From assembly GCF_008919445.1 (NCBI RefSeq), contig NZ_VSLG01000003.1:1-64000 (forward strand): a stretch of DNA of 64,000 nt, in the 5' to 3' direction. This stretch comes from Serinicoccus kebangsaanensis. Lineage in GTDB: Bacteria > Actinomycetota > Actinomycetes > Actinomycetales > Dermatophilaceae. This document shows, one piece after another, positions 17,578 to 34,237 of this stretch. The notes under the pieces were generated by a model that was not told where the DNA came from, did not search any database, and saw nothing but the letters and a program-made list of their open reading frames with translations. Every line of letters begins with the position of its first letter. The first letter of the stretch is position 1. The position numbers and the translations under genes are program-made.

Positions 17578-17606
17578 TTGACCGTCAAACATCGGATGTC
17601 TAATCT
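17578..17606 (+). promoter_or_regulatory. fucD promoter with GntR-type operator in the spacer
   Basis: A near-consensus promoter is visible: -35 TTGACC (17578-17583), a 17-base spacer and -10 TAATCT (17601-17606), 38 bases before the dehydratase start. The spacer is occupied by the palindrome ACATCGGATGT (17589-17599), so a bound repressor would block RNA polymerase directly. Related palindromes lie at two other sugar-gene promoters in the window. It sits in the divergent gap, so it may also control the FAH operon. Confidence 0.7.
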
Positions 17607-17643
17607 TGAGCGACACTATCACCCAGCTGAGGAGCGCCCCGAC

Positions 17644-19102: not shown

Positions 19103-20134
19103 TCACTGGTAGAGCATCGCCTGGATCTCTTCGTCCTCGATGTTGGACTGGTCCACCCAGAAGGACCCGGTGTCGATGATCTCCTCGACGTCCTCGCCCT
19201 CGATGACCTGCACCGCGGACTCCACGGTGAAGCGACCGATGCCCTGCGGGTCCTGCGTGATCAGACCGGCCATCACACCGCTGTTGATCGCGTCGATCTG
19301 CGCCTGACCGGAGTCGAAGCCGATGATCGTGACCTCGCCGGGCTCCATGCCCAGCTCGTTGACCGCGTTGACGATGCCGATGGCCGAGCCCTCGTTGGTG
19401 CCGTAGAGGCCGGCCATGTCCGAGTTCGCGGCGAGCATGGTCTTGGCGATGTCGGCGGACTTCAGGTGGTCCCCGTCGCCGTACTGGATGTCGACCACCT
19501 CGATGTCGGGGTAGTCCGCCTCGATCTTGTCGACGAAGCCGTCCCGCCGCTCGACGCCGGTGCTGTTGATCTGGCTGTGCGCGACGACACCGACCTTGCC
19601 CTCACCGCCGATGAGCTCGGCCATGTGCTCGGCGGCCAGGGCACCGGCCACCATCGAGTCGGTCTTGGAGATGTTGACCGGGACCTCGGAGTCGCAGCCC
19701 GCGTCGAACTCGACCACGGGGATGCCCGCCTGCTCGGCCTCCTCGTAGAGCGGCACGCAGGCCTCCGGGTCGAGGGCGGCGAAGCCGATCGCGTCCGGCC
19801 CGCGCTCGATGGCGCTGCGCAGCATCTGGAGCTGGGCGTCGATCTCGGTCTCGGAGGCGGGGCCGTCGAAGGTGACGCTCACCCCGAGCTCCTCGGCCTT
19901 CTCCTCCGCGCCGGACTGCACGGCCTGCCAGAACTGGTGCTGGAATCCCTTGGAGACGAGGGCGATGTCGTACTCACCGTCCTCGGCGCCGCCCTCCTCG
20001 CCACCGCTGCCGCCCTCGGCCTCGGCCTCGGCGCCGGGGTCCTCGACGAGCTCGCCCGAGCTGCCGCCGCAGGCGGACAGGGTGAAGGCGGCGGTGGCCG
20101 CCACGGCCAGGAAGGTCGCTCTGCTGTGCTTCAT
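19103..20134 (-). CDS. CUT2 sugar ABC transporter, substrate-binding lipoprotein
   Basis: A 343-residue periplasmic-binding-protein-like lipoprotein: signal with lipobox SACGGSS, then an acidic Gly-rich tether and a type I binding fold (YDIALVSKGFQHQFWQAVQ, GIPVVEFDAGCD, LYGTNEGSAIGIVNA, IIGFDSG). This resembles the ribose/galactose-binding group of the CUT2 family. Placement between the fucose enzymes and permease/ATPase genes suggests L-fucose or a similar 6-deoxy or pentose sugar. It is the last gene of the ATPase-permease-binding protein operon; a 99-base gap before it may allow separate or enhanced expression, as binding proteins are often made in excess. Confidence 0.88.
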   Translation of the reverse strand: MKHSRATFLAVAATAAFTLSACGGSSGELVEDPGAEAEAEGGSGGEEGGAEDGEYDIALVSKGFQHQFWQAVQSGAEEKAEELGVSVTFDGPASETEIDAQLQMLRSAIERGPDAIGFAALDPEACVPLYEEAEQAGIPVVEFDAGCDSEVPVNISKTDSMVAGALAAEHMAELIGGEGKVGVVAHSQINSTGVERRDGFVDKIEADYPDIEVVDIQYGDGDHLKSADIAKTMLAANSDMAGLYGTNEGSAIGIVNAVNELGMEPGEVTIIGFDSGQAQIDAINSGVMAGLITQDPQGIGRFTVESAVQVIEGEDVEEIIDTGSFWVDQSNIEDEEIQAMLYQ

Positions 20135-20233
20135 GTGGTCTGCTCCTTTGCAGGATGGGTGTCCGATCAGGACGTCAGGGGGTGGTGGAACGGGTCGGCA
20201 CGGGTGTCCGTGCGGATCGACGGACGGGAGGGG

Positions 20234-21283
20234 CTAGGCGCGGCCACCCCCTTCGGCCCGGCGCTTGCGGAGGTTGTCGGCGAAGACGGCGACGAGCACG
20301 ACGATGCCGACCACGACCGTCTGCCACTCGGACTGGACGGCCATGATGCGCAGGCCGTTGATGAGCACGCTCATGATGAGCGCCCCGATCAGGGTGCCCA
20401 GGATGCTGCCCCGGCCGCCGAGCAGGGAGGTGCCGCCGATGATGACCGCGGCGATGGCCTGCAGCTCGTAGCCCATGCCCAGCTGGGGCTGGGCCGAGCT
20501 CAGCCGCGACGCCAGGACGACGCCCGCGAGCCCGGTGCACGCGCCGGCGAGGGCATAGATCCCGAGCAGCCACCGGCGGGTGTTGATGCCGGACAGCCGG
20601 GTGGCCTCCTCGTTGCTGCCGATGGCGTAGGTCATCCGGCCCAGCACGGTCTTGGTGAGGACCACCCCGAGCACCAGGGCCAGGGCGAAGAGGATGAGGA
20701 CGGCGTTGGGGATGCGGGGCACCAGCTGACCCAGCGCGATCTGCTGGAAGCCCGGCACCCCGCTGAGGTAGATCGGTCGCACGCCCGAGAGGACGAGCGC
20801 CAGGCCCTGGGCGACCATCATCATCGCCAGGGTGGCGATGAAGGGCGGCAGCCCCAGGACGGCGACGTTGAAGCCGTTGATGAAGCCCACGAGCGCACCG
20901 AAGGCGATGCCACCCAGGACCCCGACGATCAGCGGCAGCCCCATGTCCGTGAGCAGCAGACCGGTGACGACCGAGCACAACGTCATACCGGTGCCGATCG
21001 ACAGGTCGATCCCGCCGGTGATGATGACGAAGGTCGTGCCGACGGCGAGGATGCCGATGACCGCGGTCGCCAGCAGGATCGAGGTCAGGTTGCTCACGGT
21101 GAAGAAGTTCGGGCTGGCCACGGCGAAGAAGAGCATCAGCGCCATGAGCGTGCCGAAGGCGAGGAGCTGCTGCAGCCCCTGCCCGAGGCGGCCGCGCCAG
21201 CCGCCGGTCGACTGCTCCGGAGGGGCCTCGGCACCCTCGTCCGAGGTCTGCCTCTCCTTCGCCGGTGCCTGAGATTCAGTCAT
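20234..21283 (-). CDS. CUT2 sugar ABC transporter permease (RbsC-like)
   Basis: A 349-residue integral membrane protein of the RbsC/BPD_transp_2 type, with a charged cytoplasmic N-tail of about 40 residues and then roughly eight to ten hydrophobic segments. The family landmark GGIDLSIGTGMTL is present, as is the EAA-like coupling region LSGINTRRWLLG. It forms the channel of the importer. Its ATG overlaps the stop of the ATPase gene (ATGA), so the two are translationally coupled. Confidence 0.9.
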   Translation of the reverse strand: MTESQAPAKERQTSDEGAEAPPEQSTGGWRGRLGQGLQQLLAFGTLMALMLFFAVASPNFFTVSNLTSILLATAVIGILAVGTTFVIITGGIDLSIGTGMTLCSVVTGLLLTDMGLPLIVGVLGGIAFGALVGFINGFNVAVLGLPPFIATLAMMMVAQGLALVLSGVRPIYLSGVPGFQQIALGQLVPRIPNAVLILFALALVLGVVLTKTVLGRMTYAIGSNEEATRLSGINTRRWLLGIYALAGACTGLAGVVLASRLSSAQPQLGMGYELQAIAAVIIGGTSLLGGRGSILGTLIGALIMSVLINGLRIMAVQSEWQTVVVGIVVLVAVFADNLRKRRAEGGGRA

Positions 21284-22797
21284 GCCACATCTCCCTCGTC
21301 GATGTTCTTGGTGGCGAGCGCCATCACCTTCTCCTGGTCCGCCTCGTCGTTGGCGAGCTCACCGGTGACCCGGCCCTCGGACATGACCACGATCCGGTGG
21401 GCGAGCCGCAGCACCTCGGGCAGCTCGGAGCTGATCACCATCACCGCCTTGCCCCGGCCCGCCAGGTCGTGGAGCAGCCGGTAGATCTCCTCCTTGGCGC
21501 CGACGTCGATGCCGCGCGTCGGCTCGTCGAAGATCAGCACGTCGCAGTCCCGCGCCAACCACTTGGCGATGACGATCTTCTGCTGGTTGCCCCCCGAGAG
21601 GTTCTTGACCATCGCCCGCGTCGACGGCGTCTTGATCCGCAGCGCATCGACGAAGGAGGAGGCGAGCTGACGGGCCTTGCCTCCGCGGAGGACACCGAGG
21701 GGACCCCGGACCTGGGCCAGCGAGGACATGGTCACGTTGAAGGCGACGTCCTGCTCCAGCATCAGCCCGTGCCGCTTGCGGTCCTCGGGCAGGTAGCCGA
21801 TCCCCCGGCGGACCGCCTGGTCCGGCCGCGAGATCCGGACTTCCTCCCCGCGGACGTAGATCGTGCCGGCGCTGATCGGGTCGGCGCCGATGATCGCCCT
21901 CGCGGTCTCGGTGCGACCGGCGCCCATGAGCCCGGCGAAGCCGAGGATCTCCCCCCGGTGGAGGTCGAAGGAGACGTCCGACAGCAGTCCCCTGGTCGAC
22001 AGTCCTCGGACCGAGAGCACGACCTCCGCGTCGCCGCCCTGCCGTTCCGGCCGGTCCTCGTGGTGCGCGGAGAGCTCGCGGCCGACCATCATCGCGATGA
22101 TCTCCTCGTCGGTGACCTCGCCGATGTCGCGCGTGTCGACATACCGGCCGTCCCGGAGCACCGTCACCCGGTCCGCGATCTCGCGCAGCTCCTCCATCCG
22201 GTGGGAGATGTAGACGATGCCCACCCCGCGCTCACGCAGCGAGGCGATGAGGCGGAAGAGCACCTCCGTCTCGGAGATGCTGATGGCCGAGGTGGGCTCG
22301 TCCATCACCAAGATCTTGGTCGACTCGAAGGACAGCGCCTTGGCGATCTCCACCATCTGCTGCTGCGCCACGGTCAGGTCACCGACCACCGCGGTGGGCC
22401 GCAGCCGGATGCCGATCTCGTCCAGCAGCGCCTGCGTCTGCCGACGCAGCGCGCGCTCCTGGAGCATGGGTCCGACCCGTGGCTCACGACCGATGTAGAT
22501 GTTCTGCGCCACGGTGAGGTGCGGCAGCAGGTTCATCTCCTGGTGGATGATGCTGATCCCGAGCTCCTGGGCGGCGCGGGGCCCGGCGATCTCCACCTGC
22601 TCCCCGTCGATGCTGATCGTCCCGGTGTCCCTGGCGTAGATGCCGGAGAGGATCTTCATCAGGGTGGACTTGCCCGCACCGTTCTCCCCCACCAGGGCGA
22701 GCACCTCGCCCCGGTCGAGGACGAGGTCGACGTCCTGCAACGCCTGCACCCCCGGGAATCCCTTGGAGACGTCCCGGATCTCAAGGAGTGCACTCAT
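21280..22797 (-). CDS. CUT2 sugar ABC transporter ATPase (RbsA-like, duplicated)
   Basis: A 505-residue protein with two ABC domains, as in RbsA/MglA. Domain one has Walker A GENGAGKST, signature LTVAQQQMVEIAKAL and Walker B ILVMDEPT. Domain two has the expected degenerate Walker A (GLMGAGRTE), an intact LSGGNQQK signature and VLIFDEPTRGID. It energises uptake of the sugar. It is the first gene of the operon, preceded by a palindromic ACATCCTATGT operator about 65 bases upstream. Confidence 0.92.
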   Translation of the reverse strand: MSALLEIRDVSKGFPGVQALQDVDLVLDRGEVLALVGENGAGKSTLMKILSGIYARDTGTISIDGEQVEIAGPRAAQELGISIIHQEMNLLPHLTVAQNIYIGREPRVGPMLQERALRRQTQALLDEIGIRLRPTAVVGDLTVAQQQMVEIAKALSFESTKILVMDEPTSAISISETEVLFRLIASLRERGVGIVYISHRMEELREIADRVTVLRDGRYVDTRDIGEVTDEEIIAMMVGRELSAHHEDRPERQGGDAEVVLSVRGLSTRGLLSDVSFDLHRGEILGFAGLMGAGRTETARAIIGADPISAGTIYVRGEEVRISRPDQAVRRGIGYLPEDRKRHGLMLEQDVAFNVTMSSLAQVRGPLGVLRGGKARQLASSFVDALRIKTPSTRAMVKNLSGGNQQKIVIAKWLARDCDVLIFDEPTRGIDVGAKEEIYRLLHDLAGRGKAVMVISSELPEVLRLAHRIVVMSEGRVTGELANDEADQEKVMALATKNIDEGDVA

Positions 22798-22898: not shown

Positions 22899-23324
22899 TC
22901 AGACGACACCCTTGCGCAGCAGATAGCACGAGTAGGGGATGGTCTCCCCGGTCTGGACGAAGGCCATCGCCCCCTCCGCGAGGTCGTAGAAGTCGAACCG
23001 GGCCACCGGCTCGACCCGGATCTCGCCCTCCCCGGCGCCTGCAGCCGCGGCGACCAGCGCGGTGGTCGCGTCCGTGATGCGCTCCGGGTCGTCGTCGATC
23101 TCCATCCGCTGGACCGGGGCCTCGACGAAGCCGTCGAGGGGCAGGACGCTCAGCAGCGCCCGCGCGGCCGCGGCGGTGTCCGCGCCACGCAGGTCGATCA
23201 CCGGCACGGAGTAGCGGTAGGCGGGGAAGTTGCGGTCGACCAGACCGATGACGTCCCCGTGTCCCATCTCGTCGAGCAGCCGCAGCAGCGATCCGGTGAG
23301 CAGGGGGTCGGTGTTCTTCAGCAC
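22899..23324 (-). CDS. fucU: RbsD/FucU-family mutarotase, probable L-fucose mutarotase
   Basis: A 141-residue protein matching FucU/RbsD: MLKNTDPLLTGSLL start, the active-site MGHGD motif (His near residue 22) and FDFYDLAEGAMAFVQTGE with a C-terminal YLLRKGV. It interconverts anomers of fucose or a related sugar so that the form made by the importer can enter the enzymes. The start is GTG 23324 with GGAGGAA six bases upstream, overlapping the end of the cupin gene by 7 bases. It is co-transcribed with that gene rather than with the ABC operon, so it may serve the second sugar pathway. Confidence 0.88.
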   Translation of the reverse strand: MLKNTDPLLTGSLLRLLDEMGHGDVIGLVDRNFPAYRYSVPVIDLRGADTAAAARALLSVLPLDGFVEAPVQRMEIDDDPERITDATTALVAAAAGAGEGEIRVEPVARFDFYDLAEGAMAFVQTGETIPYSCYLLRKGVV

Positions 23325-23929
23325 GGGCTTCCTCCGTCGTATCCGCGGTGGTCGGGGTTGGGGCGTGTGGTCCAGCCACCCGCACCGTCGTCGACCACCA
23401 GGGACGCCATGCCCTCCGCGGCCTCGATGAGGGCGTAGTTCTGCCCGGAGTCAGCGGGATAGCAGAACATCGTCACGAAGGGCTCGGTGCCGGTGTTGAC
23501 GCTGCGGTGCACCCAGTGGCCGGGCACGTGGACCGCCTCGCCGGGCGACAGCGGCAGCGCCTTCGTCCTCCCGTCGACGGTGTCCACCAGCATGACCCCG
23601 GTGCCGCTGAGGCAGTAGTACAGCTCGGCACGGTTCGGGCGGGCGTGCAGGTGCCCGCGGGTCACCGCGAACTCGTCGCCGTAGCGGCCGGGCAGCAGGG
23701 TGCTGGTGCCGACGATCAGCGCGCCGTCGTCCTCCACGTCACGCTGCTCCTGGACCGTGTAGACCACCGCGTCAGCACCCCGGGCGGCGAGCTGCTCGGC
23801 GTAGGCCGTGCGGTCGCGGTAGACCCCGTCCATGTCCCCGAGACGCTTGGTGTAGCGCCCGGTGGCCCCGGTCAGGCGACCGTCGGTGGCCACGGCCAGA
23901 CGGGCCGGGTCAGGGGGCGGGCTCGGCAC
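23318..23929 (-). CDS. Cupin-type glucose-6-phosphate-isomerase-family protein
   Basis: A 203-residue protein of the archaeal-type phosphoglucose isomerase (cupin) family. The metal-site motif TRGHLHARPNRAELYYCLSG supplies two His and a Glu, and GHWVHRSVN supplies the last His. The family isomerises phosphorylated aldose/ketose pairs. Its pairing with a mutarotase and its divergence from an FGGY kinase operon suggest that it acts on a sugar phosphate other than glucose 6-phosphate. The start is ATG 23929; the tandem operator lies 65-98 bases upstream. Confidence 0.8.
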   Translation of the reverse strand: MPSPPPDPARLAVATDGRLTGATGRYTKRLGDMDGVYRDRTAYAEQLAARGADAVVYTVQEQRDVEDDGALIVGTSTLLPGRYGDEFAVTRGHLHARPNRAELYYCLSGTGVMLVDTVDGRTKALPLSPGEAVHVPGHWVHRSVNTGTEPFVTMFCYPADSGQNYALIEAAEGMASLVVDDGAGGWTTRPNPDHRGYDGGSPC

Positions 23930-23993
23930 GGTGGATCTCCTCGGTCGCGGTGGTCGGCGATGACGACAGAGCCGACGATAAGCCGTGACGACC

Positions 23994-24037
23994 TGTCATG
24001 ACAAGAGGTTGACAACTTGTCATGACATCGGCAGTCT
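23994..24037 (+). promoter_or_regulatory. Promoter of the kinase operon with tandem TGTCATGACA operators
   Basis: Two identical perfect palindromes TGTCATGACA occupy 23994-24003 and 24018-24027, 24 bases centre to centre, in the divergent gap between the cupin and kinase genes. A -35 TTGACA lies at 24009-24014 between them, and a weak -10 CAGTCT at 24032-24037 (17-base spacer), so the second operator sits inside the promoter. TGT-N4-ACA-type palindromes suit GntR/HutC regulators; the UTRA-type regulator at 29048, at the end of this operon, is the likely ligand-responsive repressor. Confidence 0.75.
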
Positions 24038-24079
24038 CTGGGAGACGGATCAGGCCCCCGGCTCGCAGGAGAGACAACG

Positions 24080-25573
24080 ATGATCGTGGCGCACGACCTC
24101 GGCACGACGGGGGACAAGGCCTCGCTCCACGACGACGCCGGGCACACCCTGGCCACCTTCACCGCCGAGTACCCCACCCGCTTCGACGCGCACGGCGTCG
24201 CCGAGCAGGACCCGGAGCAGTGGTGGCAGGCCGTCGGCACCGCCACCCGGGGCCTGCTGGAGCAGACCGGCACCCCGAGCAGCGAGGTCCGGGGGGTCGG
24301 GCTCTCCGGGCAGATGATGGGTGCCGTCTTCCTGGACGGGGCCCATCACGTCACCCGACCCGCCATCATCTGGGCAGACCACCGCAGCGCGCCGCAGGCC
24401 GACCGGCTGCTGGCCGAGGTCGGGCAGGACACGGCATACCGCGAGCTGGGGCACCGGATCCACCCGACCTACACGCTGGCCAAGATGATGTGGGTGCGGG
24501 AGAACGAGCCCGAGGTGTGGGGGCGCACCCGCCACGTCTGCCTGGCCAAGGACTTCGTCGTCCATCGACTCACCGGGGTGCTCGTCACCGACCCCTCGGA
24601 CGCCTCCGGGACCGACGCCTTCGACCAGGTGGCCGGCCGGTGGTCGGCGCGGATGCTGGACGCGGCCGGTGTCGACGAGGGACTGCTCCCCGAGGTGGTG
24701 CCGTCGACGACGGTGGTCGGCGGGCTCACCCCGGAGGCCGCCGCGGCGACCGGTCTGGATGCCGGCACCCCCGTGGTCCTGGGCGGTGGCGACGGGCCGA
24801 TGGCGGCCGTGGGCGCGGGGGTCCTCACCGCCGACGACGCGGCCTACGCCTGCCTCGGCTCGTCGTCGTGGATCTCCTGCTCCTCGACCCGCCCGCTGCA
24901 CGACCCGGAGCTGCGGTCGATGACCTTCAACCACGTCGTCCCGGACCACTACGTGCCGACCGCCACGATGCAGGCCGGTGGCGCGAGCCTGAGCTGGGTG
25001 ATCGACCTGCTCGGCGGTGCCGGCGCCTACGACCGGCTGCTCTCGGAGGCCGCGCACGTGGCCGCCGCCGACGAGGGGTTGTTCTTCCTGCCCTACCTGC
25101 TCGGCGAGCGCTCGCCGAACTGGAACGCGGACGCCGCCGGCACCTTCGCCGGGCTGCAGCGCCACCACGGCCCGGCGCACCTGGTCCGCGCGGTGCTCGA
25201 GGGTGTCGCCTTCAACCTGAGGACCTGCATGGACGCCTTCACCGAGAACGGCGTGGGCATGGAGGCCGTGGACGTCATCGGTGGCGGCGCGCAGAGCGCG
25301 GTCTGGATGCAGGTGCTCGCCGACGTGTGGCAGGTCCCGGTGCGGCAACGCACCATCGTCGCCGACGCCAACAGCCTCGGTGCCGCGGTCACGGCCGCGG
25401 TCGGTCTCGACCTCGTCGACGGCTTCGACGTCGCCCGGACCCTGTCCTCCCTCACCGACGAGTTCACGCCCGACGCCACGCGTCGTGACCTGGCGGCGGC
25501 CCAGCACGAGGTCTTCCTGGGCGCCTACGACCGGCTCGAGCCCTGGTTCAGCACCCGGACGGTCACCCGGTGA
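24080..25573 (+). CDS. FGGY-family carbohydrate kinase, xylulokinase-like
   Basis: A 497-residue FGGY kinase with N-terminal HDLGTTGDKASLH, SGQMMGAVF and IIWADHRS motifs, the GGGDGPMAAVGAG loop and C-terminal VIGGGAQSAVW. It resembles the xylulokinase branch and would phosphorylate a ketose or a sugar acid. ATG 24080 follows AGGAGAGA. It is the first gene of a five-gene enzyme operon in which almost every junction overlaps, so the pathway begins with phosphorylation. The position HDLGTTGDK, where many relatives have GTS/GTxxxK, retains the needed Gly-Thr and Lys. Confidence 0.82.
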   Translation: MIVAHDLGTTGDKASLHDDAGHTLATFTAEYPTRFDAHGVAEQDPEQWWQAVGTATRGLLEQTGTPSSEVRGVGLSGQMMGAVFLDGAHHVTRPAIIWADHRSAPQADRLLAEVGQDTAYRELGHRIHPTYTLAKMMWVRENEPEVWGRTRHVCLAKDFVVHRLTGVLVTDPSDASGTDAFDQVAGRWSARMLDAAGVDEGLLPEVVPSTTVVGGLTPEAAAATGLDAGTPVVLGGGDGPMAAVGAGVLTADDAAYACLGSSSWISCSSTRPLHDPELRSMTFNHVVPDHYVPTATMQAGGASLSWVIDLLGGAGAYDRLLSEAAHVAAADEGLFFLPYLLGERSPNWNADAAGTFAGLQRHHGPAHLVRAVLEGVAFNLRTCMDAFTENGVGMEAVDVIGGGAQSAVWMQVLADVWQVPVRQRTIVADANSLGAAVTAAVGLDLVDGFDVARTLSSLTDEFTPDATRRDLAAAQHEVFLGAYDRLEPWFSTRTVTR

Positions 25574-26541
25574 GCGCCACCGTCCTCGTCACCTCGCGGT
25601 CCTTCTCCTCCGGCTCCCTCGACCTCGTCGGCCGCCTGGAGGAGGCCGGCCTCCGGGTGGTGCGGGGTCCGGCGGACCACGACCTCGCCTCGCTCGGGGC
25701 CTACCTCGTGGACGCGACCGCCTGGATCGCCGGCACCGGCCCGGTCACCGACCAGCACCTGGAGCGGGCCCCCGGGCTGCGCGTGCTCGCGCGCTACGGC
25801 GTCGGGGTGGACGCGGTCGACCTCGCCGCCGCCGCCCGCCGCGGGGTCACCGTCACCAACACGCCCGGGGCGAACACCGAGGCGGTGGCCGAGCACGCGC
25901 TCGCCCTGCTCCTCGCGGTGCTGCGCTCCGTGCCCGCGGGAGACCGTCGGGTCCGGGACGCCGACTGGAGCGTCACGAGGGGACGGCAGCTGGCGGGGTC
26001 CACCGCCGGCGTGGTGGGGCTGGGTCGCATCGGGCGCGCGGTCGCCGCGCGGCTGGCCGCGCTGGGCTGCACCGTCCTCGCCCACGACCCCTGGCTGTCC
26101 GACGATGAGGTGCGCTCGGCCGGGCCGGAGCCCACGACGCTGGACGAGCTGGTGCAGGAGTGCGACGTCGTGTCGCTGCACGCACCCGGCGGACGGACGC
26201 TCGTGGACCCGACCTGGACCGGCGCCAGCCGCCCCGGTCAGGTGCTGGTCAACACCGCCCGCGCCGACCTGGTCGACGAGGCCGCCGTCGCCGCCGGGTT
26301 GGCCTCCGGTCGGCTGGGTGGGTATGCCGCGGACACGCTGGTCTCCGAGTCCGGCAGCGCGACCTCCCCGCTCCTGGAGGCCGCCCTGGCCGACCGCGTG
26401 GTCCTCACCCCGCACCTGGGCGCCCAGACCACCGAGGCGGTCGACCTCATGGGCTCGATGGCCGTCGCAGCCGTCCTCGACGTCCTGCAGGGACGCGAAC
26501 CCGCGCACCCGGTGCCCACCCGGGCGGGGAACACCCGATGA
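25570..26541 (+). CDS. D-isomer-specific 2-hydroxyacid dehydrogenase
   Basis: A 323-residue NAD-dependent dehydrogenase. The cofactor fold shows GVVGLGRIGRAVAARL with a downstream Asp in HDPW; catalytic Arg lies in NTARADLVDE and His in LTPHLGAQTTE. YGVGVDAVDL and NTPGANTEAVAEHAL are family landmarks of the phosphoglycerate-dehydrogenase group. GTG 25570 overlaps the kinase stop (GTGA). It probably oxidises or reduces a phosphorylated 2-hydroxy acid in this pathway; the substrate is unknown. Confidence 0.85.
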   Translation: MSATVLVTSRSFSSGSLDLVGRLEEAGLRVVRGPADHDLASLGAYLVDATAWIAGTGPVTDQHLERAPGLRVLARYGVGVDAVDLAAAARRGVTVTNTPGANTEAVAEHALALLLAVLRSVPAGDRRVRDADWSVTRGRQLAGSTAGVVGLGRIGRAVAARLAALGCTVLAHDPWLSDDEVRSAGPEPTTLDELVQECDVVSLHAPGGRTLVDPTWTGASRPGQVLVNTARADLVDEAAVAAGLASGRLGGYAADTLVSESGSATSPLLEAALADRVVLTPHLGAQTTEAVDLMGSMAVAAVLDVLQGREPAHPVPTRAGNTR

Positions 26542-27440
26542 CCGCGCGGATGAGGTTCGTCGGCGTCACCACGGGCTCCTCGTCGATCATGCGCCTCTTC
26601 CCGGTCTGGTCCGAGCTGCTCGGCCTGGACGCCGAGCTGGTCGGGCTGGACATCCCGCTCGACGCACCGGCCGCCTCCTACCGCGCCGCGATGCGCGAGA
26701 TGCAGGAGGACCCGGACTGCGTCGGCGCCCTGGTGACCACCCACAAGATCGCGCTGCTGGACGCGACCCGCGACATGTTCGACGACCTCGACCCGTTCGC
26801 CGCGGCCGTCGGGGAGGTGTCGTCGATCGCCTTCGGTCCGGCCGGGACCCGGGGCGCCGCCAAGGACCCGGTGACCGCCGGCCTGGCGCTCGAGGAGTTC
26901 CTCGACCCGGGCCACTTCGCGGCCGGCGGGCACGTCCTGTGCCTCGGCGCCGGCGGCGCGGGCACCGCCCTGGGGTGGTACCTCGCGCAGCGCACGGACC
27001 GCACCGGCCCGCTCACCTTCGTCGACCCCGCCCCGGAGCGGCTGGAGCACCTCCGGGCCACCCTGACCGCCCGCTGGCCGGACCTCGACCTGCGCACGAG
27101 GCTCCTGGACGAGACCGACGTGTCCGACCTGCTGCGCTCGCTGCCGCCGGCCAGCCTGGTCGTCAACGCCACCGGGCTGGGCAAGGACCGTCCGGGCAGC
27201 CCGGTGCCGGACGGCGCCACCTTCCCCCGGGGCGCGGTGGTGTGGGAGCTGAACTACCGCGGCAGCCTGGAGTTCCTGCACCAGGCACGCGCCCAGCAGG
27301 CCGGGCAGGGCCTCACCGTCGTGGACGGCTGGCGCTACTTCATCCACGGGTGGACCCAGGTGATCTCCGAGGTGTTCGGGGTCGACATGCCCCCCGAGAC
27401 GGTCCAGACGCTGGCGCAGGCCGCGAGGACCTCACCGTGA
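26538..27440 (+). CDS. Shikimate/quinate-dehydrogenase-like oxidoreductase
   Basis: A 300-residue protein of the shikimate dehydrogenase fold, but divergent. SSSIMRLFP replaces the usual substrate motif SxSxxxHN, while the catalytic Lys in VTTHKIAL and Asp in AKDPVTAG are kept. The nucleotide-binding loop is CLGAGGAGTALGWYL. Its location in a sugar operon, away from aromatic-biosynthesis genes, argues that it oxidises a sugar-derived polyhydroxy substrate instead of shikimate. ATG 26538 overlaps the previous stop (ATGA). I know no characterised member with this context. Confidence 0.72.
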   Translation: MTARMRFVGVTTGSSSIMRLFPVWSELLGLDAELVGLDIPLDAPAASYRAAMREMQEDPDCVGALVTTHKIALLDATRDMFDDLDPFAAAVGEVSSIAFGPAGTRGAAKDPVTAGLALEEFLDPGHFAAGGHVLCLGAGGAGTALGWYLAQRTDRTGPLTFVDPAPERLEHLRATLTARWPDLDLRTRLLDETDVSDLLRSLPPASLVVNATGLGKDRPGSPVPDGATFPRGAVVWELNYRGSLEFLHQARAQQAGQGLTVVDGWRYFIHGWTQVISEVFGVDMPPETVQTLAQAARTSP

Positions 27441-28411
27441 CCGGCGTCGTCCGCACGGTGCTCGGCGACATCGCTCCGGACGCGCTCGGGCCCACCGACT
27501 ACCACGAGCACCTCTTCCAGGTGACCCCGCTGCTGCCCGGTGAGGACCTCGACGACGAGGACGCCAGCCGCGCCGAGGCGGCCGCACTGCTCGCCTCGGG
27601 CGCGAGCGCGATGGTCGAGGCGACGCCCACGGGTCTGGGCCGGCGCCCGCAGGCGGTCGCCCGCATCTCCAGGGACACCGGCCTGCACGTCGTCCACACC
27701 ACCGGGCTGCACCGGCACGCCCACTACCCGGGGCCGCACCAGCCCACCGAGCTGTCCCGGTCGGACCTGCTGTCCCGCTTCCGCGCCGACCTGCTCGTCG
27801 GGATGGACGACACCGCCGTCCGAGCGGGTCTGCTCAAGGCCGGGGTCGGCTACTGGTCCGCGGACGAGGTGGAGCGCACGGTGCTGGACGCGGTGGGGCA
27901 GCTGGCGGCCGAGACGGGGGCACCGGTGATGGTCCACCTGGAGCACGGCAGCGCCGCCCACAAGGTCCTGGACCTGCTCGACGAGAGCGGCTGCCCGCCC
28001 GACCGCGTCGCGCTCGCGCACGTGGACCGCAACCCCGACCCCGGGCTGCATCTCGAGCTGGCGGCGCGGGGCGCCTACCTGGGGTACGACGGGGCGGCCC
28101 GGCACCAGCGCTGGCCCGACTCGATGCTCCTCGACTGCCTGGCCGAGGTCGTCGCCGGCGGAGGCGGGCGGCGGCTGCTGCTCGGCGGGGACGTCGCCCG
28201 GCGATCCCGCTACGTCTCCTACGGTGGTATGCCCGGCCTCGCCTACCTCTTCGACCGCTTCGTCCCGCGGGTCCGGGCCCGGGTGGGCGACGAGGCGACC
28301 GACCAGATCCTCACCGAGAACCCGGCCCGCTGGCTGAGCTGGGAACCCGGACCCGCCCCCCGGCACCGTCCAGAGAAAGGCTCCGTGGTCCATGACCAGC
28401 ACCGAGGTTGA
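27437..28411 (+). CDS. Phosphotriesterase-related lactonase
   Basis: A 324-residue TIM-barrel metal hydrolase of the phosphotriesterase family. The binuclear site is readable: HxH in DYHEHLF, a bridging Glu in AMVEATP (Glu instead of carboxylated Lys), His in VHLEHG, His in ALAHVDRNPD and Asp in LLGGDVARRS. Related bacterial enzymes hydrolyse aldonolactones or phosphorylated lactones. Downstream of a kinase and two dehydrogenases it would open a phospho-lactone. GTG 27437 overlaps the upstream stop, and its 3' end overlaps the aldolase gene by 20 bases. Confidence 0.82.
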   Translation: MTGVVRTVLGDIAPDALGPTDYHEHLFQVTPLLPGEDLDDEDASRAEAAALLASGASAMVEATPTGLGRRPQAVARISRDTGLHVVHTTGLHRHAHYPGPHQPTELSRSDLLSRFRADLLVGMDDTAVRAGLLKAGVGYWSADEVERTVLDAVGQLAAETGAPVMVHLEHGSAAHKVLDLLDESGCPPDRVALAHVDRNPDPGLHLELAARGAYLGYDGAARHQRWPDSMLLDCLAEVVAGGGGRRLLLGGDVARRSRYVSYGGMPGLAYLFDRFVPRVRARVGDEATDQILTENPARWLSWEPGPAPRHRPEKGSVVHDQHRG

Positions 28412-29042
28412 CGCCCCGTCCGCGATGGTGGACCTGATGCACCGCGGACCGGTGATCCCGGTCGTGGTGATCGACGACGCCGCCACGGCGGTCCCGTTGG
28501 CACGCGCCCTCGCCCGCGGCGGTGTGCAGGTCGTCGAGATCACGCTGCGGACCAGCGCGGCGCTGGACGCGATCCGACGGATCTCCCACGAGGTCACGGA
28601 CGTGGTGGTCGGCGCGGGGACGGTCACCTCGCCCTGGCAGGCGGAGGAGGCCGCACGCGCCGGAGCCGAGTTCCTCGTCACGCCCGGCGGCCCTGCCGGG
28701 CTGGTCGACGCCGCACTGGGCACCGGGCTGCCGGTGCTCCCCGGAGCGACCTCGCTCACCGAGATGATGACGCTGCTGGACCGCGGCCTGCGGGCGCTCA
28801 AGTTCTTCCCCGCGGTCCCGGCCGGGGGCGCCCCCTACCTCGCGGCGGTGCACGGTCCCCTCCCCCAGGCCGTCTTCTGCCCCACCGGTGGCATCACCGC
28901 CGACACGGCGGGCACCTTCCTGACGCTGCCGAACGTCGCCTGCGTCGGCGGGTCCTGGCTGACCCCCGCGACGGCGCTGGCCGAGCGCGACTGGGACCGG
29001 GTGACCGCCCTCGCCACCACCGCCGCCTCGCTCCGGAGCTGA
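28392..29042 (+). CDS. KDPG/KHG-family aldolase (2-keto-3-deoxy acid cleavage)
   Basis: A 216-residue class I aldolase of the Eda family: IPVVVIDDAATAVPLARAL, EITLRTSAALDAIR with the catalytic-site Glu, VGAGTVTS, and Schiff-base Lys in LKFFPAVPAGG. It would split a 2-keto-3-deoxy (phospho)aldonate into pyruvate and an aldehyde, a logical last step of the operon. AGAAAGG precedes the ATG. No dehydratase is evident between lactonase and aldolase, so either an enzyme elsewhere supplies it or the chemistry differs. Confidence 0.86.
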   Translation: MTSTEVDAPSAMVDLMHRGPVIPVVVIDDAATAVPLARALARGGVQVVEITLRTSAALDAIRRISHEVTDVVVGAGTVTSPWQAEEAARAGAEFLVTPGGPAGLVDAALGTGLPVLPGATSLTEMMTLLDRGLRALKFFPAVPAGGAPYLAAVHGPLPQAVFCPTGGITADTAGTFLTLPNVACVGGSWLTPATALAERDWDRVTALATTAASLRS

Positions 29043-29047
29043 TCGCC

Positions 29048-29851
29048 ATGACCGCCGAGCCCGAGACCCCGCCGAGCGGCACGATCGACCGCAGCGCGTC
29101 GACGCCGTACTACCTGCAGCTCAAGCACATCCTGCAGGACCAGGTGAGCAGTGGGCTGCTGCGCCCGGGTGACCAGCTGGAGGGGGAGCACGACCTCGGC
29201 CGGCGGTACGGCGTGTCCCGTCCCGTCGTGCGCCAGGCGCTGGCGGAGCTGCACCGCGAGAACGTGCTCGAACGGGTCCGGGGCCGCGGCACCTTCGTCG
29301 CCGAGCCACGGACCTCCCAGAGCCTGGTCCAGTTCGTCCACGGGCTCTACGACGACGTCGCGGCCCTCGGCAGGACGCTGCGCAGCGAGGTCCGCCGGTT
29401 CACCGTCGAGCCCGCCGACCACGACCTCGGGCTCCGTCTCGGGGTGGACCTCGACACACCGGTCATCGCCCTGGAGAGACTCCGCTTCGTCGACGACGAG
29501 CCCTGGGTCTACACCATCAGCCACGTCCCGTTCGCCCTCGCCCCCGACCTGCTCACGCACGACCTCACCCGGCTCTCGCTCTACCACCTGCTGCAGGAGG
29601 TCTACGGCCTGCAGATCGAGCGCAGCGACCGCGTCGTGGAGGCCCAGGCCGCCGACACCGAGCTGGCCAAGGACCTGCGCATCCCACCCGGCGGACCGGT
29701 GCTCAAGCTGACCAGCGTGAGCTTCACCACCGACGGGACGCCCCTGGAGACCTTCGTGGCCTACCACCGGGCCGACCGGTCCCGGTTCGAGGTGAGCCTC
29801 ACCCGCTCGGAGCAGGGTGGACCCTCTCACCCGGTCGTGCGGATCGTCTGA
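29048..29851 (+). CDS. GntR-family regulator, HutC/UTRA type
   Basis: A 267-residue transcription factor: N-terminal winged helix (about residues 20-85, YYLQLKHILQDQVSSGLL and RRYGVSRPVVRQALAEL) and a C-terminal UTRA ligand-binding domain (about 100-260). It lies 5 bases after the aldolase gene as the last gene of the operon, so it is probably autoregulated. UTRA regulators sense sugars or sugar phosphates and bind short palindromes; the TGTCATGACA pair upstream of the operon is the likely target. Confidence 0.88.
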   Translation: MTAEPETPPSGTIDRSASTPYYLQLKHILQDQVSSGLLRPGDQLEGEHDLGRRYGVSRPVVRQALAELHRENVLERVRGRGTFVAEPRTSQSLVQFVHGLYDDVAALGRTLRSEVRRFTVEPADHDLGLRLGVDLDTPVIALERLRFVDDEPWVYTISHVPFALAPDLLTHDLTRLSLYHLLQEVYGLQIERSDRVVEAQAADTELAKDLRIPPGGPVLKLTSVSFTTDGTPLETFVAYHRADRSRFEVSLTRSEQGGPSHPVVRIV

Positions 29852-29922: not shown

Positions 29923-30669
29923 ATGTCCCTGACCGACCAGGCGATCCTCAGGATCAAGGAGATGATCATCTCCGGCGAGCTGGGACCGGGCGACCGGTTG
30001 CCGCCGGAGCAGGAGCTCAGCGAGCGGCTCGGGCTCTCCCGCAACTCCCTGCGGGAGGCGGTCAAGGCGCTGTCCATGTTCCGCGTCGTCGACGTGCGCC
30101 GCGGCGACGGCACCTATGTGACGAGCCTGCGCCCCTCGCTGCTCACGGACGCCCTGGGGTTCGTGGTGGACCTGCACCAGGACAGCAGCGTCCTGGAGCT
30201 GATGGAGGTCCGCCGGGTGCTGGAGGCGGCCGCGGTCCGCCGCGCCGCCGCACGCATCAGCGACGCGCAGCTGCAGGAGCTGTGGGCCTCCATCCCGGAC
30301 GCCGAGGGCCTGGACCCCGAGGACCTGGTGAGCGCCGACCTCACCTTCCACCGGCTGCTCGCGGTGGCGTCCGGCAACGACTACCTCGTGGGGATGCTGG
30401 ACGGACTGTCGGCGAGCACCGTCCGAGCCCGGGTGTGGCGCAGCCTCACCGAGGAGGGCGCGGTGGAGCGGACGATCCGGGAGCACGAGGCGATCCTGCG
30501 CGCGCTCGAGGCGCACGACAGCGAGCTGGCGGAGGCGAGCCTGGTCGCCCACATCGGCGGGGTCGAGGCGTGGCTGAGGCACACCCTCGCCACCGAGGAA
30601 CGCGCGTCCCAGGCGGCGCTGCTGGACGGCGACGGCGACGAGCAGCCGCTCCCCGAAGGACCGGGCTGA
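29923..30669 (+). CDS. GntR-family regulator, FadR/FCD type
   Basis: A 248-residue regulator with an N-terminal winged helix (ILRIKEMIISGELGPGDRLP, LGLSRNSLREAVKAL) and an all-helical FCD domain. Metal/ligand residues are plausible in ADLTFHRLLA and REHEAILRALEAHD. FCD regulators of sugar-acid pathways sense small carboxylates. It is a good candidate for the factor that binds the ACATCSGATGT-like sites at 17589, 22862 and 32408, though this is only inferred from proximity. It ends 15 bases before the convergent aldolase gene. Confidence 0.88.
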   Translation: MSLTDQAILRIKEMIISGELGPGDRLPPEQELSERLGLSRNSLREAVKALSMFRVVDVRRGDGTYVTSLRPSLLTDALGFVVDLHQDSSVLELMEVRRVLEAAAVRRAAARISDAQLQELWASIPDAEGLDPEDLVSADLTFHRLLAVASGNDYLVGMLDGLSASTVRARVWRSLTEEGAVERTIREHEAILRALEAHDSELAEASLVAHIGGVEAWLRHTLATEERASQAALLDGDGDEQPLPEGPG

Positions 30670-30684
30670 CCGCGGGCCGTCGCG

Positions 30685-31332
30685 TCAGCGGGAGGCGGCT
30701 GCCCGCGCGTCGCTCTCGAAGTCGGCGACCGCCCGCGCGGTGAGCTCGTCCTCCACCACCGCGCGGGCCACGGCCTCACCCAGGGTGAAGTCCGGCACCC
30801 CGGCCGCGGCCAGCCGCGCCACGTCGTCGGCCGAGCGCAGCGATGCCGCCAGGATCCGGGTGGGCTCGGACCCGATCGCCTGCTGCATCTGGATCACCGC
30901 CTCCACGCCCGGGCGGCCCGCGTCGGTCATCCGGCCGACGTAGGGGGCGACCCCGGCGAGCCCCAGGTCCCGCGCCAGCACGGCCTGGACCGGGTGGTAC
31001 ACCGCCGTGAGGAGGATCGGCACGCCGTCCCGCGCGAGGGTGGACGCGGCCGCGAGCCCCGCTGCCGAGGCCGGGACCTTGACCGTCACCGGGCCGAGCT
31101 CGAGCAGCCGCTGCGCCGACGCGAGCATCTGCGCCGTCTCCGTGCCGAGCACCTGGGCGTAGATCGACCCCACGCCCAGATCCCGCAGGGAGCGGTAGAG
31201 CTCGGGCAGGTCGTCCTGGGCCAGTCCCGCCCGGGACAGGATGGTGGGGTTGGTCGTCACCCCGCGGAAGACCCCGGTGGGCCACAGCTCCTCGACGAGG
31301 GCGAGGTCGGCGGAGTCGATGTACAGGCCCAT
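30685..31332 (-). CDS. Transaldolase-like / fructose-6-phosphate aldolase family protein
   Basis: A 215-residue protein matching the short FSA/TalC branch in length. The motif GVTTNPTIL and the Schiff-base Lys85 in PVTVKVPAS are present; Lys85 is the catalytic residue number known for E. coli FSA. Such enzymes cleave or form C3-C4 bonds of ketose phosphates, or use dihydroxyacetone. It follows the Gfo/Idh dehydrogenase gene in a two-gene operon under the 32408 operator and could cleave a fuculose-type product. Confidence 0.85.
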   Translation of the reverse strand: MGLYIDSADLALVEELWPTGVFRGVTTNPTILSRAGLAQDDLPELYRSLRDLGVGSIYAQVLGTETAQMLASAQRLLELGPVTVKVPASAAGLAAASTLARDGVPILLTAVYHPVQAVLARDLGLAGVAPYVGRMTDAGRPGVEAVIQMQQAIGSEPTRILAASLRSADDVARLAAAGVPDFTLGEAVARAVVEDELTARAVADFESDARAAASR

Positions 31333-31379
31333 GGGCGCTCCTAGGGTCGTGGTCGTCGCGGGACGGGTCGGGTCGGCGG

Positions 31380-32363
31380 TCAGGTCGGTGCGATGGTCGC
31401 GGCGAGCCGGGAGACGGTGCGGACGGTCCGCCCGGTGAGCTCCCAGGACGGCTCGTCCCGCTCCCCCCGCGCCACCTGACGGGCGAAGGCGCGCACCTGC
31501 TCGGCGTACTGGTCGCCCTCGCAGGACAGCTCCCGCCGACCGCGCTCGTCCTCGACCACGAGGGTCGCGACGCCGCCGTGGCGGTCCGCGCGGAAGACGT
31601 CGGTCAGCGTGACCGCACCCCGGGTGCCGATGACGGTGGCCGAGTTGCGGAACGGGGCATCGAAGCTGCAGTCGAAGGTCGCCAGGACCGGGCCGTACCG
31701 CAGCGCTGCCGCGAGCCGGGTCTCCACCCCGTCCGGACGGTCACGGGAGGACACGGTCGAGACCTCGTCGGGCTCGGCGCCGGTCAGCATCCCGAACAGG
31801 TCGACGCAGTAGCAGCCCAGGTCCCGGAGGCTGCCGCCCCCCAGCGACGGGTCGAGCCTGATGTCGTCGGCGCCGTCGCGCCGGTCCAGGTCGAAGTGCA
31901 GGCGCGCCTCGAGGGCGACGAGGTCACCGAGACCGCCCTCGGAGCAGAGTCCGCGCAACGTCTCCAGCTGCGGGTGGTGGCGATACATGAAGGCCTCGGC
32001 CACGACGACCCCGGCGGCCTCGGCGGCCCGCTCGACGCCCTCCAGCTGCGCCGGCCCCATGACCATCGGCTTCTCGCACAGCACGTGCTTGCCGGCGGCG
32101 GCGGCACGCTCCACCCACGCCGCGTGCTCGGTGTTCGGCAGCGCGACGTAGACGGCGTCGACCCCGGCGTCGGCGAGGAGCTCCTCGTGCGAGTCGTAGG
32201 CCCGACCGATCCCCAGCCGCCGGGCATACCCGGGTGCGCGCCCGCTGGCGCTGCTCACGGCGACGACGTCGCCCGCACCGGACCGACGGATCGCCGGGAT
32301 CACCTGCTCCTCGGCGATGCGCGCCGCTCCCAGGACACCCCAGGCCAGGTGGCTGTCGGACAT
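31380..32363 (-). CDS. Gfo/Idh/MocA-family sugar dehydrogenase
   Basis: A 327-residue NAD(P)-dependent oxidoreductase: N-terminal Rossmann motif GVLGAARIAEEQVIPA, the family signature HVLCEKPMV with the catalytic Lys, and a C-terminal alpha/beta substrate domain containing GGGSLRDLGCYCVD. It oxidises a hydroxyl of a sugar, inositol or related substrate. ATG 32363 is chosen over the ATG at 32411 because GGAGGAG lies directly upstream, and the longer frame would run into the operator. Confidence 0.87.
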   Translation of the reverse strand: MSDSHLAWGVLGAARIAEEQVIPAIRRSGAGDVVAVSSASGRAPGYARRLGIGRAYDSHEELLADAGVDAVYVALPNTEHAAWVERAAAAGKHVLCEKPMVMGPAQLEGVERAAEAAGVVVAEAFMYRHHPQLETLRGLCSEGGLGDLVALEARLHFDLDRRDGADDIRLDPSLGGGSLRDLGCYCVDLFGMLTGAEPDEVSTVSSRDRPDGVETRLAAALRYGPVLATFDCSFDAPFRNSATVIGTRGAVTLTDVFRADRHGGVATLVVEDERGRRELSCEGDQYAEQVRAFARQVARGERDEPSWELTGRTVRTVSRLAATIAPT

Positions 32364-32407
32364 GATCTCCTCCACGGGCCGGGGCATGGCCGACCTGACG
32401 GAGGCAG

Positions 32408-32423
32408 CCATCGGATGTTTGAC
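32408..32423. promoter_or_regulatory. Operator in the divergent gap of the dehydrogenase and kinase genes
   Basis: CCATCGGATGTTTGAC contains the same core as the fucD site (one mismatch in ACATCGGATGT), and its ATGTTTGAC is the exact reverse complement of GTCAAACAT at 17584-17592. It lies 45 bases upstream of the minus-strand dehydrogenase start and 78 bases upstream of the plus-strand kinase start, so it may control both. Confidence 0.55.
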
Positions 32424-32500
32424 TACAGTCTAGCGAGAGGCGTGATCGACATCGCCAGGCGCCCGAGGGCCGGCAGGCCCGCTCGATGAGGAGGAAACCC

Positions 32501-33322
32501 GTGGGCAAAGTCGTCGTCTTCGGCTCGCTGAGCCAGGACCTGCACCTGCCGATGGAGCGGCACCCGAGCACCGGCGAGACGGTGATGTCGGGCGACATCG
32601 AGTACCGCTTCGGCGGCAAGGGCGCCAACCAGGCGGTGGCGGCCGCCCGTGCCGGGGTCACCTCCGTCTTCGTCGGGAAGGTCGGCGACGACCCGCAGGG
32701 CCACGAGTACGTCCGGCGGCTGGGTGCGCACGGGGTGGACACCTCCAGGATGGAGATCGTCGAGGGTGCGCCGACGGGCACGGCGATCATCTACAACGAC
32801 GCGAGCGGGGAGAACATGATCGTCGTCGCGCCGGGGGCCAACCACCACGTGCAGCTCTCCGACGTGGACCGGCTGGACGACCTGACCTCGGACGACGTGC
32901 TGCTCATGCCGCTCGAGCTGCAGCACGACGTGGTGGCCGCCGCGGCCCGCCGCGGCAGCGAGCTGGGCGCGCGGGTGGTGCTCAACCTCGCGCCCTTCGC
33001 CGAGCTCCCCGACGACGTGCTCGCCCTCTGCGACCCGGTCGTCGTCAACGAGCACGAGGCCGGCCTGCTCTCCCGTGCCGGCATCACCCCGCGGTCGTTG
33101 CTGACCACCCTGGGGGCGGAGGGGTCGCGGTGGGGAGACCTCCAGGTCCCCGCCGTCCCCGTCACGCCGGTGGACACGACCGGGGCCGGTGACGCCTTCT
33201 GCGGCACCCTCGCCGCGGCGCTGTGCCGGGGCGAGGGGCGCGAGGCCGCGATGTCGCTGGCCGCCGAGGCTGCCTCGGCGTGCGTGCTGCACCACGGCGC
33301 GCAGCCTCCCCTGGAGACCTGA
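32501..33322 (+). CDS. PfkB/ribokinase-family sugar kinase
   Basis: A 273-residue kinase. The FGGKGANQAVAAARAG substrate motif and the C-terminal anion-hole signature DTTGAGDAFCG with catalytic Asp identify the ribokinase family. GTG 32501 is preferred because GAGGAGGAAA lies just upstream; an ATG at 32486 would place that site inside the gene. It is shorter than ribokinase (about 305 residues). It is followed by an epimerase gene, so the pair probably handles a ketose. Confidence 0.86.
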   Translation: MGKVVVFGSLSQDLHLPMERHPSTGETVMSGDIEYRFGGKGANQAVAAARAGVTSVFVGKVGDDPQGHEYVRRLGAHGVDTSRMEIVEGAPTGTAIIYNDASGENMIVVAPGANHHVQLSDVDRLDDLTSDDVLLMPLELQHDVVAAAARRGSELGARVVLNLAPFAELPDDVLALCDPVVVNEHEAGLLSRAGITPRSLLTTLGAEGSRWGDLQVPAVPVTPVDTTGAGDAFCGTLAAALCRGEGREAAMSLAAEAASACVLHHGAQPPLET

Positions 33323-33370
33323 CCCGAGATCCACGGCGCACGAGCGCCAGACGTCCGAGGAGGACCCCCT

Positions 33371-34237
33371 GTGAAGATCGGCTGCCACGGCCTGGTGTGG
33401 ACCGGCACGTATGACGCCCGCGGCATCCGGCACGCGGTCGAACGCACCCGCACGGCCGGGTTCGACCTCGTCGAGTTCCCCCTCATGGACCTCGAGACCT
33501 TCGACGTCCGAGCCGCCCGCGAGGCGCTGGACGAGCACGGGCTGGTGGCGACCGGCAGCCTCGGGCTGACCGCCGGCACCGACATCAGCAGCGAGGACCC
33601 GGAGGCGGTGCGGGCGGGTGAGACGCTCCTGCTCCGTGCGGTGGACCTGCTCGCCGAGCTGGGGTCGCGGCACCTGTGCGGGGTGATCTACAGCGCGATG
33701 CAGAAGTATGCCGGGCCGACGACCGCCCAGGGCGTGGAGAACAGCCGCGCGGTGGTCCGGCGGGTGGCCGAGCACGCCGCGGCCGCCGGCATCCAGGTCA
33801 GTGTCGAGGTGACGAACAGGTATGAGTCGAACGTCCTCAACACCGCTCGTCAGGCCCGCGACTTCGTCGCCGGCCTGGAGCCGGGGGTGGGGGTGCACCT
33901 GGACACCTACCACATGAACATCGAGGAGGCGGGGATGTCCGCCCCGGTGCTGGAGACCGCCGACCAGCTCAGCTACGTGCACATCGGCGAGAGCCACCGC
34001 GGCTACCTGGGCACCGGCACCGTCGACTTCGCCGGCTTCTTCGCCGCGCTGCGGCAGATCGACTACGACGGACCCGTGGTCTTCGAGTCCTTCTCCTCGG
34101 CCGTCGTGTCCGCGGAGCTCAGCAACGCGCTGGGCATCTGGCGCAACCTCTGGGAGTCGGGGGACGACCTCGGCGAGCACGCCCACCGGTTCATCCGCGA
34201 CCACCTCGCCGGGGAGGCATCTCCGCCCGGGCGCTGA
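33371..34237 (+). CDS. Sugar phosphate isomerase/epimerase (ketose 3-epimerase-like)
   Basis: A 288-residue xylose-isomerase-like TIM barrel. Four metal ligands can be read in order: Glu in SVEVTNRYESN, Asp in HLDTYHMN, His in HIGESHRG and Glu in VVFESFSS, the pattern of D-tagatose/D-psicose 3-epimerases. GTG 33371 follows GGAGGA. It probably epimerises a free or phosphorylated ketose alongside the upstream kinase. The exact sugar is unknown. Confidence 0.82.
   Translation: MKIGCHGLVWTGTYDARGIRHAVERTRTAGFDLVEFPLMDLETFDVRAAREALDEHGLVATGSLGLTAGTDISSEDPEAVRAGETLLLRAVDLLAELGSRHLCGVIYSAMQKYAGPTTAQGVENSRAVVRRVAEHAAAAGIQVSVEVTNRYESNVLNTARQARDFVAGLEPGVGVHLDTYHMNIEEAGMSAPVLETADQLSYVHIGESHRGYLGTGTVDFAGFFAALRQIDYDGPVVFESFSSAVVSAELSNALGIWRNLWESGDDLGEHAHRFIRDHLAGEASPPGR

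Follow-up and report, generated by a model that had tools for sequence, protein, structure and literature searches.

In the Entner-Doudoroff pathway (Zwf-Pgl-Edd-Eda), a phospho-sugar is carried through a lactone phosphate and an aldonate phosphate to a keto acid, on which Eda acts. The 2-ketogluconate (kgu) pathway of Pseudomonas includes a redox reaction at C2 of a phosphorylated hexonate, carried out by KguD, which we take to be a member of the 2-hydroxyacid dehydrogenase (2HADH) family. Known routes for sulfoquinovose, apiose, inositol and ascorbate were also weighed. Here we analysed a 64-kb window (the whole stretch of DNA under study) on NZ_VSLG01000003.1 of Serinicoccus kebangsaanensis, whose genome is 3.5 Mb. 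It contains a divergent unit in which a cupin and a FucU/RbsD mutarotase lie opposite an FGGY kinase, a 2HADH, a shikimate-dehydrogenase-like enzyme (SDH), a phosphotriesterase-family hydrolase (PTE), an Eda-type aldolase and a GntR-UTRA regulator. An earlier note on this DNA had proposed that these genes encode a sugar-acid pathway and knew of no described route with their combination. Profile searches find every one of the genes at its proposed position and in its proposed family, and the gene overlaps are confirmed. A literature search, covering open-licence papers only and listing nothing even for 'phospho-furanose lactonase', recognised no described route either. The unit is real and widespread, and its catabolic function is apparently undescribed; the outline in the earlier note was largely right.

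The gene set is tightly linked and is common to bacteria of three phyla. Loci were collected by similarity to SDH, so that its presence in them is built in: relatives of SDH were found at 154 places in genome contigs, 80 of which were kept, and 15 plasmids were added. We examined 115 loci (L027-L141), 114 of them with an SDH match, and counted the 95 with enough flank; as the two SDH proteins in each of three locus pairs share 99% identity or more, these represent 92 distinct loci. Within 10 kb of SDH, a cupin was present in 91 of the 95, an FGGY kinase in 90, a 2HADH in 92, PTE in 74, a metallo-beta-lactamase-fold hydrolase (MBL) in 17 and Eda in 42. By comparison, 40 control windows of 20 kb each, picked by position and non-randomly from three cluster-bearing genomes, contained two kinases and no cupin, 2HADH, PTE, MBL or Eda. 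The genes, whose separation in other genomes would have spoken against the earlier note, are thus found together. Thinning SDH at 80% identity left 51 loci, with a cupin in 47, a kinase in 46 and a 2HADH in 48. Of 297 genomes of the order, 13 have a relative of SDH, as do 10 of the 396 in the phylum sample; both tallies count the Serinicoccus genome itself. The hosts are Actinomycetota, Trueperaceae (Deinococcota), rhizobia, Marinovum, Lichenicola and one Paraburkholderia. Pairwise distances of kinase, 2HADH, SDH and PTE correlate at 0.89-0.91 (69 sequences), a correlation that common ancestry alone could produce.

The search for SDH together with a lactonase, suggested in the earlier note, revealed that nearly every locus has one lactonase type: PTE only in 73 of the 95, MBL only in 16, both in 1 and neither in 5. 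One locus scored as 'neither' (L044) has, by its gene calls, a PTE start right behind its SDH, and no lactonase was found in the two Trueperaceae loci. The loci with MBL and without PTE are the 15 plasmid loci and L119. In 66 of 78 loci the genes for SDH and PTE share 4 or 1 base. MBL is usually one gene off SDH and its direct neighbour in L119 and L090. The latter, the sole locus with both types, has two SDH genes, one adjoining PTE and the other adjoining MBL. As PTE and MBL are unrelated yet replace each other, they should share one reaction. This displacement, together with the phospho-lactonase models that the two families match below cut-off (scores below), is what we take as the best evidence for a phospho-lactone intermediate. 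The six binuclear-metal ligands of PTE (H23, H25, K134, H167, H195 and D252) are at least 90% conserved in 76 sequences, and its nearest solved relatives, 3pnz and 3msr, are presumably phospho-furanose lactonases.

By the fold of its predicted model, SDH belongs to the shikimate dehydrogenase superfamily: a fold search matches shikimate/quinate dehydrogenases and 5-ketofructose reductase (7cok, 7col), and shikimate and quinate dehydrogenases score equal to or higher than 5-ketofructose reductase. Its best NCBIfam AroE score, 39.5 of 235 bits, misses the cut-off. K70 and D110, which we take to be the counterparts of AroE K65 and D102 (the catalytic Lys and Asp), are invariant in 35 relatives and in 9 of 9 across phyla; K216, R241 and H270 are likewise conserved in 9 of 9.

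In 2HADH, R231 and H282 are present in 75 of 75 sequences, as is D or E at position 260, and KguD already provides an example of a redox enzyme that acts at C2 of a 6-phospho-aldonate (PMC11678583). The cupin is a member of PF06560 that retains its metal ligands; H81, H83, E90 and H129 are conserved in 90% or more of 69 sequences (numbering of the 191-aa call). Its T78, G80 and Y145, also retained, presumably correspond to the phosphate site of the archaeal phosphoglucose isomerase (PGI). The cupin, an isomerase in the earlier note, is more likely a sugar-phosphate isomerase that follows the kinase. The kinase passes the xylulokinase cut-off of TIGR01312, and two proteobacterial counterparts fall under it (324 and 326 bits), so that the name need not imply xylulose. 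The GQMMG that the kinase has instead of GQMHG might hint at a 3-deoxy substrate, but we dropped this argument, as the rhizobial L127, L130 and L132 kinases retain GQMHG; the accessible part of an FGGY paper gives no contact for the histidine of this motif (PMC3245297).

The divergent region of 150 bases contains two palindromes, 24 bases apart. Their exact core, TGTCATGACA, occurs at 2 places in the genome, both in the divergent promoter (reversed control: 1 place), and with 2 mismatches allowed a single further site appeared on a different contig, no more than in the control. A 3-mismatch palindrome search of the window yielded 2 against a mean of 1.36, which alone is not significant. The palindromes align, with variants, in six relatives. 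Among 80 related loci (1.49 Mb), 7 contain the core, with 8 sites in total, all of them intergenic or at a gene edge and adjoining the gene of a cupin, an FGGY kinase or a UTRA regulator; none was present in 0.8 Mb of control sequence. The UTRA regulator is presumed to bind these predicted operators.

Eda is the sole match of its family in its own genome. An Eda match is present in 58 of 59 cluster genomes, which include at least one duplicate (G227, G717); 57 pass the cut-off, and the Edd cut-off is passed by 6. Across the order, an Eda match (E 0.001) occurs in all 13 SDH-positive genomes and in 162 of the other 284 (Fisher p 0.001, uncorrected for phylogeny). In two distant relatives, GntR-UTRA and Eda are fused in one protein (L117:6774-8231 and L118:7718-9250), directly upstream of 2HADH-SDH-PTE in L117 and of SDH-PTE in L118. 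In these fusions with a KDPG/KHG-type aldolase (KDPG, 2-keto-3-deoxy-6-phosphogluconate), the regulator looks as though it were coupled to the aldolase's substrate or product. Searching for the IlvD/Edd type and FUCD only, we found no dehydratase regularly linked to the core in the 115 loci; an IlvD/Edd-type gene lies near one of them. Other possible keto-deoxy acid sources in the own genome number UxuA 0, GD_AH 0, IlvD/Edd 1 (239 of 708 bits, short of the Edd cut-off) and MR_MLE_C 5. DeoC-like aldolases, a hint of deoxy sugars, are encoded next to the core in five loci (L103, L119, L128, L138 and L140), of which two are near-identical.

In the reading that we favour, at a probability of about 0.45, the genes form a self-contained catabolic operon that leads from an imported monosaccharide through a phospho-sugar, a lactone phosphate and a 2-keto acid phosphate to pyruvate, with a 3-deoxyhexulose as the simplest substrate. 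The monosaccharide would enter via the linked ABC transporter, the kinase would phosphorylate its ketose form, and the cupin would convert the ketose phosphate to an aldose phosphate. SDH would then oxidise the ring hydroxyl of the aldose phosphate, acting at C1, to give the lactone phosphate. PTE (or MBL in relatives) would open this to the aldonate phosphate, 2HADH would oxidise its C2, and Eda would split the resulting 2-keto acid phosphate into pyruvate and a phosphorylated aldehyde. The order of the steps and the phosphate on the lactone are those that we infer. The claim in the earlier note of one co-regulated route from a phospho-sugar via a phospho-lactone to Eda is supported by the co-conservation, the displacement of PTE by MBL, the UTRA-Eda fusions and the dedicated operator.

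If Eda is to release pyruvate and no dehydratase takes part, the substrate must be deoxy at carbon 3 beforehand. With no dehydratase regularly linked, the simplest substrate would thus already lack the 3-hydroxyl, and a 3-deoxyhexulose, for instance 3-deoxyfructose, would suit; KDPG would then be the keto acid, and each enzyme would be given a job. A natural candidate is 3-deoxyfructose, which arises by reduction of the glycation product 3-deoxyglucosone. That the substrate is a 3-deoxy sugar is a possible but doubtful proposal. We regard as rather unlikely its fullest form, a dedicated phosphorylative pathway for 3-deoxyhexuloses in which KDPG arises by oxidation, SDH serves as a sugar-phosphate 1-dehydrogenase and two unrelated lactonases are interchangeable.

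Several observations weigh against the favoured reading. The top NCBIfam model of PTE, phospho-furanose lactonase NF045706, is matched at 117.1 of 630 bits, below its cut-off. Three MBL proteins match the model of UlaG, which we take to be the ascorbate-6-phosphate lactonase, in second rank and below cut-off (48, 20 and 44 of 306 bits), and score better, still under cut-off, with a generic hydrolase model. At the positions that presumably contact phosphate in 3ovg (K217, K244, Y245, R275 and Y278), PTE has R198, Q224, R225, R255 and R258; R255 is identical, R198 and R258 differ but are conserved in the family, and Q224 and R225 are not conserved. Eda misses the KDPG-specific model NF004673 (246 of 320 bits), the VGG[ST]WL motif, presumably part of its phosphate site, is found in 7 of 30 Eda proteins, and 53 of the 95 loci have no Eda within 10 kb. 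FUCD, an enolase-family dehydratase, occurs in the window and in 43 of 115 loci, within an L-fucose-type set, and the five MR_MLE members of the genome leave other keto-deoxy acid sources open. The polyol-type dehydrogenases of rhizobial relatives and a sugar-binding protein nearest to 4ry9 (both described below) likewise speak against the favoured reading and its 3-deoxy substrate. Individual loci also depart from the scheme: in L131 an SDR takes the place of 2HADH between SDH and MBL, and there is no 2HADH match, L118 has no linked PGI-type cupin, kinase or 2HADH, and L116 has no lactonase by SDH, its genome (G321) being without an Eda match.

The same steps might instead start from an ordinary ketohexose, perhaps tagatose or psicose derived from a hexitol, with the 3-hydroxyl kept and the aldolase freeing hydroxypyruvate. 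This would suit the polyol-type dehydrogenases of the rhizobial loci, which carry SDR and glycerol-dehydrogenase-like genes and in two cases also a galactitol-phosphate-dehydrogenase-like gene; the sugar-binding protein (SBP) of L132, nearest to 4ry9 (388 bits), presumably a D-talitol complex; the psicose-3-epimerase-like gene at 33371-34237 (160 of 300 bits, below the model cut-off); and the variable Eda motif. We nevertheless consider it unlikely: Eda clears its subfamily cut-off, none of the annotated core genes was recognised as handling hydroxypyruvate, for which no special search was made, and ordinary hexuloses are generally known to have shorter routes. A pentose version, in which a pentulose 5-phosphate is converted via a pentono-1,4-lactone 5-phosphate to pyruvate and glycolaldehyde phosphate, would fit the XylB-like kinase and the nearest solved PTE relatives, which we take to act on pentonolactone 5-phosphates. 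The cupin, however, is from a hexose-6-phosphate isomerase family and glycolaldehyde phosphate is a poor end product, making this version decidedly improbable.

Other alternatives change the roles of the dehydrogenases. The only sugar enzyme in the fold listing, 5-ketofructose reductase, is named for the ketone of a ketose and not for C1, so that SDH may not act at C1, a further point against the favoured reading. SDH might then oxidise or reduce an inner hydroxyl, with the lactone coming from the resulting keto sugar or from another enzyme. We consider this quite unlikely, since the equal or higher scores of shikimate and quinate dehydrogenases make the match not specific to 5-ketofructose reductase activity, and each SDH is paired with its own lactonase, fitting a lactone made by SDH. 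Alternatively, 2HADH might be a reductase, as KguD is (PMC11678583), and with SDH might epimerise a phospho-sugar acid towards 6-phosphogluconate. Eda would then be accessory, in line with its absence near 53 loci; but lactone opening already produces a 2-hydroxy acid, and the UTRA-Eda fusions also argue against this improbable scheme. Finally, the operon might be a branch of the L-fucose-type genes at 11812-18996, with PTE as a fuconolactonase, given that the two sets are adjacent here and that FUCD is frequent among the loci. This is highly improbable: the L-fucose-type genes include one for a separate L-fuconolactonase-like protein (153 of 400 bits), FUCD is undetected in 72 of 115 core loci (some short), and the operator core is confined to the divergent promoter.

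Gene order varies among relatives. The common order on rhizobial and related plasmids is cupin-Eda-SDH-2HADH-MBL-RpiR, often divergent from SBP-ATPase-permease-kinase with the polyol-type dehydrogenases; two plasmid loci have other layouts and some are without Eda. L101 is without kinase and cupin, and L105 has SDH only. Distant versions (L107, L110, L121, L123 and L124, the last with no SDH match) add Gfo/Idh/MocA and zinc-type dehydrogenases, recognised by models on L110 and by resemblance in the others. A family of 440-449 aa is encoded at L107:9984-11333, L110:9893-11236 and L121:4420-5742 (38-69% identity); Pfam gives no match for the L110 copy, and that of L121 weakly matches sulfoquinovose isomerase SftI (25.5 of 700 bits). 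The family is possibly an unrecognised sugar isomerase, and together with the extra dehydrogenases it suggests that substrates may vary. PrpB- and PrpD-like genes near the Microbacterium loci were judged to be local synteny and were not used.

In the window, consecutive plus-strand genes overlap by 4, 4, 4 and 20 bases, and the regulator starts 5 bases after the last overlapping pair (Table 1). On the minus strand, the cupin and FucU genes share 7 bases; next comes a ribose-type ABC transporter (19103-22797), which is also part of the divergent unit and whose SBP gene is found close to the core in many relatives.

Table 1. Features of the divergent unit in the window, with proposed roles and supporting matches.
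Feature	Position	Strand	Evidence
Ribose-type (CUT2) sugar-binding protein (SBP)	19103..20134	-	ORF; nearest solved sequence 4wut, 146 bits
ABC permease	20234..21283	-	PF02653, 155 bits
ABC ATPase, RbsA-like	21280..22797	-	profile matches
FucU/RbsD mutarotase	22899..23324	-	PF05025, 97 bits
Cupin, archaeal phosphoglucose isomerase family; proposed sugar-phosphate isomerase	23318..23929	-	PF06560, 118.8 bits; 1j3p, 129 bits
Doubled operator-like palindrome (CCTGTCATGACAAG, CTTGTCATGACATC)	23992..24029	.	10-base core unique in genome to site pair
FGGY kinase, XylB type	24080..25573	+	TIGR01312, 415 bits vs cut-off 380.25
2HADH; proposed C2 oxidation of aldonate phosphate	25570..26541	+	profile matches; conserved residues
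SDH-like dehydrogenase, shikimate dehydrogenase fold; proposed sugar-phosphate 1-dehydrogenase	26538..27440	+	conserved residues; predicted model
PTE-family hydrolase; proposed phospho-sugar lactonase	27437..28411	+	PF02126, 140.6 bits; 3pnz 144.7, 3msr 115.6 bits
Eda-type aldolase	28392..29042	+	TIGR01182, 231 bits vs cut-off 156
GntR-UTRA regulator, presumed binder of palindromes	29048..29851	+	profile match

The L-fucose-type oxidation genes comprise a fuconolactonase-like protein, an L-fucose-isomerase-C domain protein, a second FGGY kinase, an SDR, an FAH-type hydrolase and an enolase-family dehydratase. On the other side, 29923-34237 encodes a GntR-FCD regulator and fructose-6-phosphate-aldolase-like, Gfo/Idh/MocA, ribokinase-like and psicose-3-epimerase-like proteins, whose genes are also near the core in many relatives. 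The region 36111-43059 resembles an aromatic meta-cleavage cluster, with an FAA-hydrolase-type protein, a glyoxalase/dioxygenase-superfamily protein, an aldehyde dehydrogenase and an FAD monooxygenase with a phenol-hydroxylase C-domain; at 39591-41132, an FAA-hydrolase domain is combined with an RraA-like aldolase domain in a single protein of 513 aa.

If the favoured reading is true, the operon would represent a so far undescribed route for oxidising sugars that spans several phyla and employs the unusual pairing of an SDH-fold enzyme and two exchangeable lactonases. Should the 3-deoxy substrate also be true, bacteria would have an enzymatic way to consume sugar-browning products. The compact gene set makes the question of which sugar is used directly testable.

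Compared with described systems, the proposed route has both likenesses and differences. Shikimate and quinate dehydrogenases are 16-26% identical to SDH, whereas SDH sits in a sugar-catabolic setting. The 5-ketofructose reductase of Gluconobacter is like SDH in fold and is a sugar enzyme by name, and we know of no linkage of it to a kinase, lactonase or aldolase. The phospho-furanose lactonases share the metal ligands of PTE, but PTE lies far under their cut-off and its phosphate contacts are mostly altered. The kgu pathway is alike in its redox step at C2, but begins with an imported keto acid and runs that step in the opposite direction. With the Entner-Doudoroff pathway the proposed route would share the whole succession from phospho-sugar to Eda; here, however, a ketose kinase and a cupin isomerase would stand at the entry, an SDH-fold dehydrogenase would take the place of Zwf, PTE or MBL that of Pgl, and oxidation by 2HADH that of dehydration by Edd.

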